Below, in pieces: positions 496 through 11,645 of a stretch of 18,112 nt of DNA. The stretch is from DASVDK01 sp036381125 [NCBI: Thermodesulfobacteriota bacterium] (GTDB lineage: Bacteria; DASVDK01): positions 1 to 18,112 of the forward strand of contig DASVDK010000109.1 of assembly GCA_036381125.1 (NCBI GenBank). Direction: 5' to 3'. The notes beneath the pieces are model-generated. The model made no database searches. It was not told the DNA's origin and saw nothing but the letters and a program-made list of their open reading frames with translations. Both the position numbers and the translations under genes were made by a program. Each line of letters begins with the position of its first letter. Position 1 is the stretch's first letter.

Positions 496-2043
496 GTGCT
501 CGAGACGCTGGGCGGCCTCGCGCACGGCTTCGGCGCGGCGCTCGAGCCCGGGCTCCTCGGCTACGCCTTCGCCGGCTGCATCGTCGGGACGCTGGTGGGG
601 GTGCTGCCCGGCGTCGGCCCGCTCGCCGGCATCAGCCTGCTGCTCCCGGTCACCTTCGGCCTCGACGCCACGCGCGCCATCGTGCTCCTCGCCGGCATCT
701 ACTACGGCTCGATGTACGGGGGCTCGACCACGTCGATCCTCATGCGGATCCCGGGCGAGGCGGCGTCGGTCATGACCTGCCTCGACGGCTACGCGATGAC
801 CAGGAAGGGCCGGGGCGGGGCGGCCCTGGCCGTCGCGGCGGTCGGCTCCTTCGTCGCCGGGACGCTCAGCGTCGTGGCCCTCATGCTGCTCGCGCCGCCG
901 CTCGCGGAGTTCGCCCTGCGCTTCGGGCCGCCCGAGTACACGGCGCTCCTCGTGCTGGGCCTCCTCGTGCTCGCCTTCATGAGCACCGGCTCGATGCCCA
1001 GGGCGCTCGCCATGGCGACCGTCGGCCTCCTGGCCGGCATGGTGGGCATCGACACGATGACCGGCTTCACCCGCTTCACCCTCGGGGTGGTGGAGCTGTC
1101 GGACGGGCTCGGCATCGTGCCGATCGCGGTCGGCCTGTTCGGCATCTCGGAGATCCTCCTCAGCGCGGGGCAGCCGACGCCGCCGGTCGTCGCCAGGCCC
1201 CGGTTGCGGGAGCTGCTCCCGTCGCGAGAGGAGTGGCGCCGCTCGGCGGCGCCGATCGGCCGCGGCACGCTGCTGGGGTTCCTGATCGGCGTGATCCCCG
1301 GGTCGGCCCACATCATCGCGTCGTTCGTCTCCTACGCCGTGGAGCGCCGGCTCTCGCGGCGCCGCGACGAGTTCGGCCGGGGGGCGATCGAGGGGGTCGC
1401 GGGCCCCGAGTCGGCCAACAACGCCGCCGCCTCCGGCGCCCTGGTGCCGATGCTCGCGCTCGGCGTCCCGTCCGGCCCCATCCCCGCGGTCATGCTGGCA
1501 GCCATCATGGTCCACGGGCTCCAGCCGGGCCCCATGCTGATCCAGCAGTCGCCCGACCTCTTCTGGGGGTTCATCGCGAGCATGTACGTCGGCAACGTCG
1601 TGCTGCTCGTCCTGAACCTCCCCATGGTCGGCCTCTTCGTCAACCTCCTGCGGATCCCCTATCGCTGGCTGTACCCGGCGATCCTCGTCTTCTGCGTGCT
1701 CGGCGTCTACGCGGTGAACGGCAGCGTCGTGGACGTCTGGATCATGACGGCGGCCGGCGCGGCCGGCTATCTCCTCCGCAAGTTCGCCTTCGAGCCGGCG
1801 CCGATCGTGCTCGGCCTCGTGCTCGCGCCGACGCTCGAGATGAGCTTCCGGCAGTCGCTCGCGCTGTCGGGCGGCGACTACACGGTCTTCGTCACGCGGC
1901 CGATCGCGGCCGCCATGCTGGCCTTCGCGGTCGTCCTCCTCGTCCTCGGCGCCCTGCCGGCCCTGGCGCGCGGGGGAGCCGTGCGGGCCCGCCTCGGCCT
2001 TGCCAATGCATCCGCTACCACTCCGGAGGACACGAACCGATGA
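496..2043 (+). CDS. TctA family large permease subunit of a tripartite tricarboxylate transporter
   Basis: A 515-residue polytopic membrane protein, the usual length for TctA. Family-typical stretches are VGVLPGVGP at residues 34-42, the YYGSMYGGSTTSIL region near 69-82, and a second, internally related glycine-rich half with GPESANNAAASGALVP and LGVPSGPIPAV. TctA forms the transport channel and takes substrate from the TctC receptor. The start is GTG at 496, three bases after the tctB stop, without a clear Shine-Dalgarno sequence, so translation is probably coupled to tctB. The 3' end overlaps tctC as ATGA (2040-2043). Confidence in the family is high; the substrate (citrate, tricarballylate, an aromatic acid or another carboxylate) is unknown. 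Confidence 0.95.
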   Translation: MLETLGGLAHGFGAALEPGLLGYAFAGCIVGTLVGVLPGVGPLAGISLLLPVTFGLDATRAIVLLAGIYYGSMYGGSTTSILMRIPGEAASVMTCLDGYAMTRKGRGGAALAVAAVGSFVAGTLSVVALMLLAPPLAEFALRFGPPEYTALLVLGLLVLAFMSTGSMPRALAMATVGLLAGMVGIDTMTGFTRFTLGVVELSDGLGIVPIAVGLFGISEILLSAGQPTPPVVARPRLRELLPSREEWRRSAAPIGRGTLLGFLIGVIPGSAHIIASFVSYAVERRLSRRRDEFGRGAIEGVAGPESANNAAASGALVPMLALGVPSGPIPAVMLAAIMVHGLQPGPMLIQQSPDLFWGFIASMYVGNVVLLVLNLPMVGLFVNLLRIPYRWLYPAILVFCVLGVYAVNGSVVDVWIMTAAGAAGYLLRKFAFEPAPIVLGLVLAPTLEMSFRQSLALSGGDYTVFVTRPIAAAMLAFAVVLLVLGALPALARGGAVRARLGLANASATTPEDTNR

Positions 2044-3596: not shown

Positions 3597-4637
3597 TCAG
3601 GCGGGTCGCCCCTCACGGTAGGGGTCGAAGTCCCCGCCGGCCCGCTCGCTGATCGTCAGGCGCCCGGCCAGGGCGTCGAGGAACCGCGACGCCGGGATCC
3701 GGGAGACGAGCCGGCGGCCGTCGGGCCCGATCGGATGGAGGCTCGGCGTGATGTCGCGGACGTCGTCGGCGTACCAGCGCGCGGCCACGGCCCCGCCGGG
3801 GGTGTGGTCCACCTCGAGGCGGTCGAGGACCGGGACGAGGGGGACCAGGTCGACGCGCGGGCGAGGCCGCCGGCTCGCCAGGCGGACCCAGGTCTCGTAG
3901 CGGAGGCTGACCCCCTCCACCGCCCCGCCGGTGAGCCAGAGGACCCGCGTGCGCGGCGTCCGCGGGTAGACGGCCGCGCGCGGCAGGGGGGCGAGGCCGG
4001 CGTCCCGATCGACCACCGCGAGGTCGAGGTCCGGCCGGTCGTCGATCCGGGCGCGCCCCCGCTCGAACGCCCGCATGCCGGCCTCGACCGCCGCGAACGG
4101 CTCCTCCCAGAGCGCCCGGACCTCGGGCGCATCGGGCGCCTCGAGCCAGGCCGGCAGCCGCGCGAGGACCGCCTCGTACCGCCCCGCGACCCGATCCGGG
4201 TAGGGGCGCGTCGCCTCCGAGACGCCGAGCGGCGAGCGCGCGGGGTCGGTGAACGCCGAGATGGCGAGCGCGACCTTGAGCGCCGAGGGGTCGCGCCAGA
4301 CGAGGAAGTCCCCGGCCGTGGCGGCCGCGACGACGAGGTCGCGCCGCGCGAGCGCCGCCTCCGGCGCGACGAGCGCCAGGAGGGCCAGGGCGCCGTCCTC
4401 GTCGAAGTGGTTGTTCGTGACCGAGCGGGCGCCGGCGGCGAGGCGGTCCCGCTCCCGCGGCGGGAGGTCGAGGAACCGGAGGGCGATCTCGGCGCTCGTG
4501 TCGGCGCCGAGCCCGGCCGGCGTCGGCGTGCCGGGCCAGTGCGAGAGGGTGAGCGTCGTGCCGGGCTGCGGCGCGCCGTCGGCCACCACGTGCGGGCGGC
4601 CGGCACAGGCGCCGTAGGGGACGAACGCGAAGCGCAT
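3597..4637 (-). CDS. Conserved protein of unknown function (possibly DUF6687)
   Basis: A 346-residue soluble protein with no signal peptide or membrane segment. The N-terminal part has LSHWPG at 31-36, ADTSAEI near 45-51 and NNHFDEDG at 75-82. The last motif recalls the metal-binding DHH/HFDxDG pattern of DHH-type phosphoesterases, but no other DHH motif is obvious. From memory this arrangement resembles the family named DUF6687; I cannot verify that here. The C-terminal half has conserved-looking WLTGG and a basic/aromatic region but suggests no activity. The ATG at 4637 lies 5 bases after a TATACT hexamer and lacks a Shine-Dalgarno sequence, so a leaderless transcript is likely. The promoter lies in the gap next to the livF stop, so this gene can be transcribed separately from the liv operon. 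Confidence 0.7.
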   Translation of the reverse strand: MRFAFVPYGACAGRPHVVADGAPQPGTTLTLSHWPGTPTPAGLGADTSAEIALRFLDLPPRERDRLAAGARSVTNNHFDEDGALALLALVAPEAALARRDLVVAAATAGDFLVWRDPSALKVALAISAFTDPARSPLGVSEATRPYPDRVAGRYEAVLARLPAWLEAPDAPEVRALWEEPFAAVEAGMRAFERGRARIDDRPDLDLAVVDRDAGLAPLPRAAVYPRTPRTRVLWLTGGAVEGVSLRYETWVRLASRRPRPRVDLVPLVPVLDRLEVDHTPGGAVAARWYADDVRDITPSLHPIGPDGRRLVSRIPASRFLDALAGRLTISERAGGDFDPYREGRPA

Positions 4638-5392: not shown

Positions 5393-6162
<770 letters not shown>

Positions 6163-6166
<4 letters not shown>

Positions 6167-7026
6167 GGCTTGGCGCCTCGTCGCAGCATCCGGCGCACCA
6201 CGTCGGGCACCTCGAGGAGGCCGTTCGGCAGGTAGACGATGACGAGGAAGAGCACGAGCCCGGTCACCATCCCCCGGAAGTCGGCGAGGAACCGGAGCAG
6301 CTCCGGCAGGAGCGTGAGGATGGTCGAGCCGAGGATCGGGCCCCAGTAGGAGCCGGTGCCGCCGAGGACCGCGAAGGCGAGGATGTCCACGGCGGGGCCG
6401 AACCCGTACTCGCGGGGGGAGATGAAGAAGGTGAAGTGCGCGTTGAAGCCGCCGGCGAGGCCGGCCAGCATCGCGCCCAGGACGAAGACGAGGTTCTTGT
6501 GGTAGACGACGTCGATCCCCATCACGCGGGCGGCGACCTCGTCCTCCCGGATGGCGTCGAGCGTGCGGCCGAGCCGCGAGCGCCTGAGCCGCTCGAAGAA
6601 GTAGATCAGCGCCGCGCAGGCGAGGACGAGGTGCCACAGCTCGGTCTTCGGCGGGATGCCGTTGAGGCCCATGGCGCCGCCCGTCACCTCGAGGTTGAGG
6701 AAGACGACGCGGATCACCTCGCCGAAGGCCAGCGTGGCGAGCGCCAGGTAGACGCCGGACAGCCTGAGCACCGGCAGCCCGATCGCGAGGCCGACCAGGC
6801 CGGCCGCGGCGCTGCCGGCCGCGAGGCAGACGGGGAACGGCAGGTCGAGCTTCATGGTGAGGAGCGCCGAGGTGTAGGCGCCGATGCCGGCGAAGGCGGC
6901 GTTGCCCACCGAGAGGAGGCCGGTGTTGAGCGTGATGTAGATGCTCAGCGCGAGGATGGCGTGCGTGAAGAGGAGGTAGACGAGGGTGTTGTACGTCTGC
7001 CAGAAGGCGGCGAGCCACTCCACCAC
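6163..7026 (-). CDS. livM: LivM-type ABC transporter permease
   Basis: A 287-residue integral membrane protein with about eight membrane segments. Family markers are LNTGLLSVGNAAFAGIGAYTSALL near the N-terminus, LSGVYLALATLAFGE, the cytoplasmic coupling helix ALIYFFERLRRSRLGRTLDAIREDEVAARVMGID, and FAVLGGTGSYWGPILGS. The start GTG at 7026 lies 14 bases after the livH stop and is preceded by a GGGAGGGG Shine-Dalgarno sequence at 6-7 bases. A second GTG follows directly at 7023. The upstream extension of this frame into livH is a shadow. The protein is somewhat shorter at its N-terminus than many LivM proteins but contains all the expected blocks. Confidence 0.93.
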
Positions 7027-10417: not shown

Positions 10418-10861
10418 ATGCGGGACGTCTTCCGCCGGTTCGCCCACCAGGCGTCGCTGCTCGTCGGATCACCCTGGGCCTTCCTGCTCGCGGTGGTCAC
10501 CCTCGTGATCTGGGCGGTCACCGGCCCGGCCTTCGGCTACTCGGACGCGTGGCAGCTCGTCATCAACACCGGCACGACCATCGTCACCTTCCTCATGGTC
10601 TTCCTCATCCAGAGCACGCAGAACCGGGACGCGCGGGCCGTCCACCTCAAGCTCGACGAGCTGATCCGCGCCGTGAGGGGCGCCCGCACGAGCCTGGTCA
10701 ACCTCGAGGAGCTGACGGATCAGGAACTGGACGAGCTGCAGCGGGAGTTCGCCGCGCTGCACGACCGGCTCGCGCACAGGATCGGCCGCCAGGCCGCCGG
10801 CGCCTTCGCGGCGGAGCGGGAGCGCCGCGCGCGCGGTACCCATTCGGGAGGTACGCGCTAG
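10418..10861 (+). CDS. Low-affinity iron permease family small membrane protein
   Basis: A 147-residue protein with two membrane segments (about 20-39 and 47-66). It has the conserved block INTGTTIVTFLMVFLIQSTQNRD and then AVHLKLDELI, characteristic of the bacterial low-affinity iron permease family (named after yeast Fet4; transport has not been shown for most bacterial members). The C-terminal tail is helical and charged (NLEELTDQELDELQREF). The start is clear: GAGGAGG (10404-10410) lies 7 bases before the ATG. The TAG stop at 10859-10861 forms the first half of the -10 hexamer TAGACT of the next gene. The 113-base gap before it holds GC-rich inverted repeats (for example CCCGGCCGGG) but no clear promoter. 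Confidence 0.9.
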   Translation: MRDVFRRFAHQASLLVGSPWAFLLAVVTLVIWAVTGPAFGYSDAWQLVINTGTTIVTFLMVFLIQSTQNRDARAVHLKLDELIRAVRGARTSLVNLEELTDQELDELQREFAALHDRLAHRIGRQAAGAFAAERERRARGTHSGGTR

Positions 10862-10864
10862 ACT
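10859..10864 (+). promoter_or_regulatory. Probable -10 element TAGACT, leaderless type, overlapping an upstream stop codon
   Basis: TAGACT follows GCGC and lies six bases (GGCGGG) before the ATG at 10871. Its TAG is also the stop codon of the iron permease gene. The spacing equals that of the other leaderless-type promoters in the window, so it supports the ATG at 10871 as a real start. That start lies upstream of the in-frame TGA. Confidence 0.55.
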
Positions 10865-10870
10865 GGCGGG

Positions 10871-11512
10871 ATGTCGCTCTCACCTCGTACCGGCATGCAC
10901 GTCGTCGTCTACTCGGACTACGTCTGACCCTGGGCCTACAACGCGGCCGTGTGGCTGCGTCGGGCCGAGGACGAGGCGCGGGCGGAGGGCCGCCCGATCG
11001 CCGTCGAGTGGCGGACCTTCTCCCTCGAGCAGGTCAACAGCAGGACCCCCGAGACGAAAGTCTGGGACCACCCGGAGCGGCGGTGGCGCAGCGTCGCCGC
11101 GCTCGCCGCGGCACAGGCGGCGCGCCGGCTCGACCCCGGCCGCTTCCCCGCCTTCCACATGGCGCTCTTCGAGGCACGCCACCTGCGGGCCCAGGACCTC
11201 TCCGACCCGGCCACCCTCGACGCCGTCGCCGAAGCGGCCGGCTACGACCGGGCCGCCTTCGCGGCCGCGCGCGCCTCGGCGGAGGCCTGGCGGGAGGTCG
11301 GGCGCGACCACGAGGCGGCCGCCGAGCGGGGCGTCTTCGGCACGCCGACGCTCGTCTTCGGCCCGAAGGCGGTCTTCCTCAAGATGCAGCCGGCCCCGGA
11401 GGAGGAGAGCGCCCTGACCCTCCTCGAGGACATCGTCGACCTGCACCTGCGCGCCCCGTACATTCTCGAGATGAAGCAGCCCGAGGCGGTCACCGCGCGG
11501 GCGAGGGGCTGA
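10871..11512 (+). CDS. DsbA/FrnE-like thioredoxin-fold protein, probable selenoprotein with Sec19 (in-frame TGA at 10925-10927)
   Basis: The frame from the ATG at 10871 is open to 11510 except for one TGA at codon 19. Read through, it gives 213 residues: a first strand VVVYSDYV, the active site Sec19-Pro-Trp-Ala at the start of the first helix, a helical insertion (RLDPGRFPAFHMALFEA), and the cis-proline loop GVFGTPTLVFG with Pro159. This is the layout of DsbA-family FrnE/2-hydroxychromene-2-carboxylate isomerase-like proteins, where the TGA position is the nucleophilic Cys of CPxC. There is no other Cys in the protein, so Sec would be the only redox residue. A SECIS-like hairpin follows the TGA. 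A leaderless-type -10 supports the start; ATG 10895 is an alternative. Other explanations are a Cys-to-stop mutation or a sequencing error. A conventional call would begin at GTG 10949 and lack the active site. Confidence 0.75.
10933..10966 (+). promoter_or_regulatory. Bacterial SECIS-like hairpin downstream of the in-frame TGA
   Basis: Positions 10941-10948 (ACGCGGCC) pair with 10953-10960 (GGCTGCGT) as eight consecutive pairs, one of them G-U, closing the loop GTGT at 10949-10952. A lower helix pairs GGCC at 10933-10936 with GGCC at 10963-10966 across a small asymmetric internal loop. The upper stem begins 13 bases after the TGA, and the loop G lies 21 bases after it. Known bacterial SECIS elements need a stem at this distance and a G among the first loop bases for SelB binding, and this hairpin has both. 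GC-rich DNA forms hairpins easily by chance, so the structure alone is not proof. Confidence 0.6.
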
Positions 11513-11562
11513 TCGCTCCCCGGCCGAGATCGGCAACGCCGCACTCGCCGATTCCCTCGGGT

Positions 11563-11588
11563 GCCGCCGGTCACCGCCGACCGGCGGC
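11563..11588 (+). terminator. Perfect 10-bp inverted repeat after the DsbA-like gene
   Basis: GCCGCCGGTC (11563-11572) is the exact reverse complement of GACCGGCGGC (11579-11588) around a six-base loop, 51 bases after the stop of the DsbA-like gene. There is no T-tract. It probably marks the 3' end of that message. The rest of the 189-base gap (11513-11701) holds the promoter of the MFS gene and nothing else that I recognise. Confidence 0.5.
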
Positions 11589-11645
11589 TCGTGGGCGCGA
11601 CGGCGAGGACCCCGCCCGGTCGATCGATCATTGCGTCCTTCCCAC

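Follow-up and report, generated by a model that had tools for sequence, protein, structure and literature searches.

Is the in-frame TGA in the putative thiol-enzyme gene at 10871-11512 read as selenocysteine (Sec), or does it mark a damaged or misplaced gene? The window, that is, the whole stretch of DNA analysed here (18,112 nucleotides), has a GC content of 74% and contains the following features around this codon.

10859-10864, plus strand: -10-like hexamer TAGACT (TAnnnT), which ends 6 bases 5' of ATG 10871 and includes the TAG stop of the upstream gene.
10871-11512, plus strand: predicted selenoprotein gene, a read-through open reading frame of 213 residues with Sec at residue 19 and the stop codon TGA at 11510-11512.
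10895, plus strand: ATG (M9), an alternative start candidate, likewise 5' of TGA 10925-10927.
10925-10927, plus strand: predicted selenocysteine codon UGA (Sec19), occupying the place of the nucleophile in the DsbA fold; TGA in 4/4 close and TGT in 3/3 weaker full-length relatives.
10929-10970, plus strand: predicted bacterial SECIS hairpin with the apical loop GUGU at 10949-10952, 21 nt past the UGA.
11339-11350, plus strand: GTPT loop with the cis-proline of the thioredoxin fold (Pro159).

The comparisons described below indicate that the gene very probably encodes a DsbA-fold selenoprotein in which UGA 10925 is read as Sec. The frame is open from 10871 to 11512 except for TGA 10925-10927. 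An earlier, sequence-only reading of the window had pointed to such an intact frame with a lone TGA, and to a motif YSDYV-TGA-PWAYNAA with an undamaged GTPT loop; both descriptions hold in the read-through frame. Pro159 is invariant in all nine aligned proteins.

The read-through protein is predicted to be a DsbA-fold domain, both by structure modelling and by the Pfam DSBA profile (PF01323). The model, built from nine sequences with Cys in place of Sec, has a pLDDT of 86.1 and a pTM of 0.82. The profile scores 73.1 bits (3.4e-20, cut-off 25.6), and the score drops to 53.4 bits without the first 19 residues. The protein also reaches PF22234, the Rv2466c family, at 27.6-27.7 bits against a cut-off of 27. 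Three TGA-containing relatives, introduced below, score 24.0 (L006), 19.8 (L007) and 23.4 (L008), and a fourth (L009) is absent from the PF22234 matches at E<=0.01. At that threshold PF22234 is matched almost end to end in six of the nine aligned proteins, and the match is clear in the Cys-containing relatives L016 and L025. Among NCBIfam models, only NF041057 (the selenolipoprotein family Rcas_1661, described as DsbG-like) matches the window protein at E<=1; its 35.6 bits fall short of the cut-off of 190, which gives no membership in that family.

The active-site motif of the family is U-P-[WYF]-A. Alanine occupies the +3 position in all five close members, the window protein included, and none has a resolving Cys. 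The window protein and L007 contain no Cys at all, the Sec position aside. The proposal that the TGA replaces the nucleophile of a CPxx motif is thus right as to the position, and the +3 residue sets the site (UPWA) apart from the CPxC-type motif of DsbA and FrnE. Membership in FrnE or classical DsbA was rejected for the same reason, UPWA having no resolving Cys. The label "FrnE-like" given earlier captures the DsbA fold but is too broad, as the nearest solved protein is DR2335 and the resolving Cys is missing.

DR2335 (DR_2335) of Deinococcus radiodurans (PDB 7dk9/7dka) is the best PDB match by sequence (1.5e-8) and by profile (3.4e-26). It is also the top fold match, with a Z of 23.4 and an rmsd of 3.0 over 191 residues at 28% identity. 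Its active site, CPYA, lies at the aligned place and contains one nucleophile and Ala at +3, as in the window protein; the nucleophile is Cys in DR2335 and Sec in the window protein. A review (PMC8945050) describes DR2335 as having a single conserved Cys and no functional data.

Rv2466c (Mrx2, PF22234) ranks second by VIA Z (19.1). The two proteins share the nucleophile at residue 19 and an ELKR-type C-terminal end, but the site of Rv2466c is CPWC, with a resolving Cys and no Sec, where the window protein has UPWA. The window sequence alone did not find Rv2466c in the PDB search at E<=0.001, although it found DR2335 and FrnE; the profile reached Rv2466c at 8.9e-23, two Rv2466c-like Cys rows being part of that profile. 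Foldseek places Rv2466c, DsbA and FrnE about level.

Kappa GST (Z 18.0) and HCCA isomerase (Z 16.7) are further fold matches, not far behind Rv2466c. SPYAY is a pattern of kappa GST and HCCA isomerase enzymes, and UPYAY resembles it. The gene might therefore encode a selenoprotein that performs glutathione transfer or isomerisation, with Sec replacing the glutathione-activating Ser, rather than a disulfide reductase. We regard this as unlikely. DR2335 is the better match in fold and in profile (3.4e-26, versus 7.7e-9 for HCCA isomerase), although the two Rv2466c-like Cys rows in the profile favour thiol enzymes in this comparison, and the codon specifies Cys rather than Ser in the weaker relatives.

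That the codon itself is Sec is argued by the homologues. The search query consisted only of the part 3' of the TGA and was thus blind to that codon. Among the species genomes, 38 pattern matches yielded one relative (L001, 45% identity), with TGA at the same codon; it comes from the MAG Deltaproteobacteria bacterium isolate NC_groundwater_360. In 395 genomes drawn from the phylum of L001, 44 had a match at E<=0.001. Four of the matches are full-length at E<=7e-27 (L006, L007, L008 and L009), L006 being the gene of L001. In all four, TGA directly precedes the matched region at the identical codon. Each of the four shares 37-46% identity with the window protein, with no gap in the alignment near the codon. 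The three weaker full-length relatives (L016, L017 and L025) all have TGT (Cys) at this codon. These counts exclude the remaining matches in the 395 genomes, which span only query residues within 32-164.

These results bear on whether, in the window copy, a Cys codon was recently mutated to a stop or misread in sequencing. TGA differs from both TGC and TGT by a single base, but the identical codon recurs in 4/4 close relatives, which come from separate genomes and are 37-46% identical, and is therefore not a chance event. No second internal stop occurs in these genes, and a strong hairpin lies immediately 3' of the window TGA. A pseudogene or sequencing error is thus very improbable. The earlier expectation of homologues with TGA or Cys at the codon and conservation on both flanks is borne out, and the assorted stops that would have spoken for decay are absent, this TGA being the single internal stop in all four close relatives.

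Further searches left the set of relatives unchanged. A second draw of 366 genomes from the phylum returned the same four orthologues and none new. Searches at the order level around the orthologue genomes G001, G083 and G027 (1, 5 and 1 genomes) and at the class level around G001 (1 genome) added no orthologue. The plasmid and phage collections gave no tblastn match, and 10 pattern matches in viral contigs included no relative. In a tree of the nine proteins, five of the six inner branches are open, and the tree is therefore not used to argue for a gain or a loss of Sec.

The segment 5' of the TGA is kept as protein in five genes, reading VVVYSDYV, LTVYVDYL, LVVFYDYL, LEIWSDYL and LTVYSCYI. 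It ends in DY[VL] in four of them and in CYI in L009. This conservation implies that translation passes through the TGA. It also bears on a start 3' of the TGA, with the TGA as an ordinary stop and a shortened protein as the product. A frame of 187 residues from GTG 10949 is indeed present in the list of open reading frames. Its product, however, would lack the first strand of the fold and the active-site residue, the conserved residues 5' of the TGA would be left unaccounted for in all five genes, and the -10-like hexamer stands at the upstream ATG 10871. Such a late start has an even smaller chance of being correct than a pseudogene or error. In the selenoprotein reading, translation starts 5' of the TGA. 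A start farther upstream than ATG 10871 is ruled out, since the in-frame TAG 10859-10861, which is also the stop of the upstream gene, is followed by no start codon up to ATG 10871.

The earlier claim of a -10 hexamer 6 bases before the ATG, as at other genes of the window, is confirmed for TAGACT. Across both strands of the window, TAnnnT at -14 to -10 precedes five of 909 ATG/GTG/TTG triplets. Four of these triplets begin a gene or probably do so: 4637(-), codon 42 of an adenosine deaminase, the gene at 10871, and codon 46 of an FAD oxidoreductase. Codon 42 is a plausible start for the adenosine deaminase, whose listed frame has its Pfam match only from residue 51 on. In terms of ATG starts, TAnnnT lies 5 to 7 bases upstream at 4637(-), 9309(+), 10871(+) and 14955(+) and is rare elsewhere in the window. 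Such hexamers near the starts suggest that these genes, including the gene at 10871, may have leaderless transcripts.

Genome-wide reading of TGA as Trp or another standard residue would open the frame as well, but it is rejected on the stop usage of the window and retains a negligible probability: TGA ends 17 of the 20 outlined genes, the only internal stop is that in gene 10871-11512, and the weaker relatives align Cys at the codon. TGA is therefore an ordinary stop in the source organism. Several starts in the 20-gene outline are approximate, and its last gene runs past the window edge.

The machinery for Sec insertion was compared between genomes with and without a gene of the window type. 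A selB gene scores above the cut-off in all four genomes carrying an orthologue, and tRNA-Sec (anticodon tca by ARAGORN) and selA are each found in three of them. The orthologue genome G355 gave no match for tRNA-Sec or selA; its assembly is in many contigs, and an incomplete genome is the likely, though unproven, cause of the gap. In L001, selB (638 residues, L001:3783-5699(-)) lies some 250 bases upstream of the orthologue in divergent orientation. In the other three genomes, selB and the orthologue are on different contigs. Seven further genomes without a TGA gene of the window type, picked non-randomly as kin or Cys carriers, contain tRNA-Sec in 6/7 and selB in 5/7 cases. Since tRNA-Sec is also present in these genomes, the machinery by itself is weak evidence, consistent with Sec insertion rather than decisive.

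Two observations concern the tRNA and sel genes themselves. Contig 31 of G083 (L067) contains a second Sec gene set, made up of tRNA-Sec, selA and a selB-like frame running into an N stretch; G083 has a further selA and a complete selB on different contigs. Two tRNA-Cys genes of 94-97 bases (anticodon gca; L068:734-830(-) and L072:749-842(-)) score above the tRNA-Sec family cut-off; they are perhaps the tRNA-Sec-like Cys tRNAs already known from publications.

The predicted SECIS hairpin of the window gene has a folding energy of -30.8 kcal/mol, with a z of -4.1 against 400 synonymous shuffles (p 0.003). The 156 other positions of the gene that were tested all fold less strongly. The bacterial SECIS constraints given in PMC13188914 are a loop of 3-9 nt, a stem of 4-16 bp, a G within the first two loop positions, a spacing of 16-37 nt and an energy of -7.5 kcal/mol or lower. 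All seven TGA genes (the window gene, its four close relatives, and two UPxC genes described below) and neither of two Cys genes (L016 and L025; L017 was left out) satisfy these constraints, which are loose and were fitted over five fold lengths. Among 400 shuffled versions of the window gene, 275 satisfy them as well, as do 53 of 156 other places in the gene; across the seven TGA genes, 123 to 335 of 400 shuffles do. Folding is stronger than in shuffles at the 0.05 level in two of the seven, the window gene (p 0.003) and L060 (p 0.037); in the remaining five it is not (p 0.07 to 0.36). Strong folding at the same place is likewise seen in L016, a Cys gene (p 0.005). Covariation in the hairpin, over five sequences, is not above controls. 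An Rfam search of 10800-11600 gave three matches, none above the cut-off and none to a SECIS family.

Two of the partial matches, the two genes in which the catalytic site was inspected, are additional DsbA/FrnE-type genes with an in-frame TGA at the same codon: L060 in G001 (5615-6232(-)) and L038 in G027 (1252-1845(+)). Both occur in genomes with a gene of the window type and share with it the Pfam domain and the TGA codon, but they differ by a Cys at +3, with the motifs UPWC in L060 and UPYC in L038. All seven TGA genes share the heptamer TGACCCT unchanged, although the Pro codon is free to vary; the invariance possibly reflects the lower hairpin stem or the decoding context.

DsbA-like selenoproteins are already known from bacteria and metagenomes, as stated earlier for this locus and as the tables of PMC13188914 and PMC2398784 document. 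Table 1 of PMC13188914, a 2026 catalogue, lists form 1 with UxxC and form 2 with DxxUP. The GOS survey (PMC2398784) lists DsbA 1 and DsbA 2 with UxxC and DsbA 3 with UxxV. DsbA 3 thus likewise has no Cys at +3, whereas DsbA 1, DsbA 2 and form 1 have one, unlike the window protein. UxxA is not among the motifs given in these tables for GOS DsbA 1-3 or DsbA-like form 1. Form 2 shares PF01323 with the window family, and DxxUP fits four of the five genes (DYVUP once and DYLUP three times; L009 has CYIUP). As compared by its table entry, form 2 is catalogued as a crotonase/enoyl-CoA hydratase family protein with MDP6049977.1 as its representative, and the window protein may belong to the same family as form 2. 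The earlier call of a new selenoprotein is hence supported as to the selenoprotein and uncertain as to its newness, since the catalogued form 2 (PMC13188914) could match. Literature searches over titles and abstract openings did not find a UPxA DsbA selenoprotein, and the word DsbA does not occur in the main text of PMC12013277.

In the mechanism that we propose, ribosomes would read UGA 10925 as Sec with the aid of the SECIS hairpin just 3' of it, to which SelB would bind together with Sec-tRNA. The active site U-P-W-A would present a single selenol at the nucleophile position of DsbA. The target of the selenolate would be a disulfide, a peroxide or some other electrophile, and the product a selenylsulfide or a selenenic acid. 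A small cellular thiol would then resolve this intermediate, as mycothiol does for Rv2466c. According to PMC11841060, Rv2466c is a mycothiol-dependent reductase in which Cys19 reacts with mycothiol and Cys22 competes through an internal disulfide; the same paper notes that mycothiol seems confined to actinomycetes. The window protein is probably cytoplasmic, as no leader precedes its first strand.

Given that the protein is a selenoprotein, its fold and motif make a small-thiol-dependent monoselenol reductase a tentative assignment, for which the chances fall slightly short of even. The case is nearly balanced for a separate, uncatalogued family of Cys-free or Cys-poor DR2335-type enzymes with a lone selenol, U-P-[WYF]-A, that would depend on a small thiol for its resolution. 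The motif UPxA as such is absent from the tables of DsbA-like selenoproteins in PMC13188914 and PMC2398784.

Standard annotation would truncate the protein after 18 residues or begin it too late. With Ala at +3, the lone Sec cannot form an internal bond to a resolving Cys and would have to be resolved from outside; this leads to the testable prediction that the enzyme depends on an external thiol. The DR2335-type branch has a solved structure and no assigned function, and the Sec version, together with the genomes that carry it, would provide a handle on the role of this branch.
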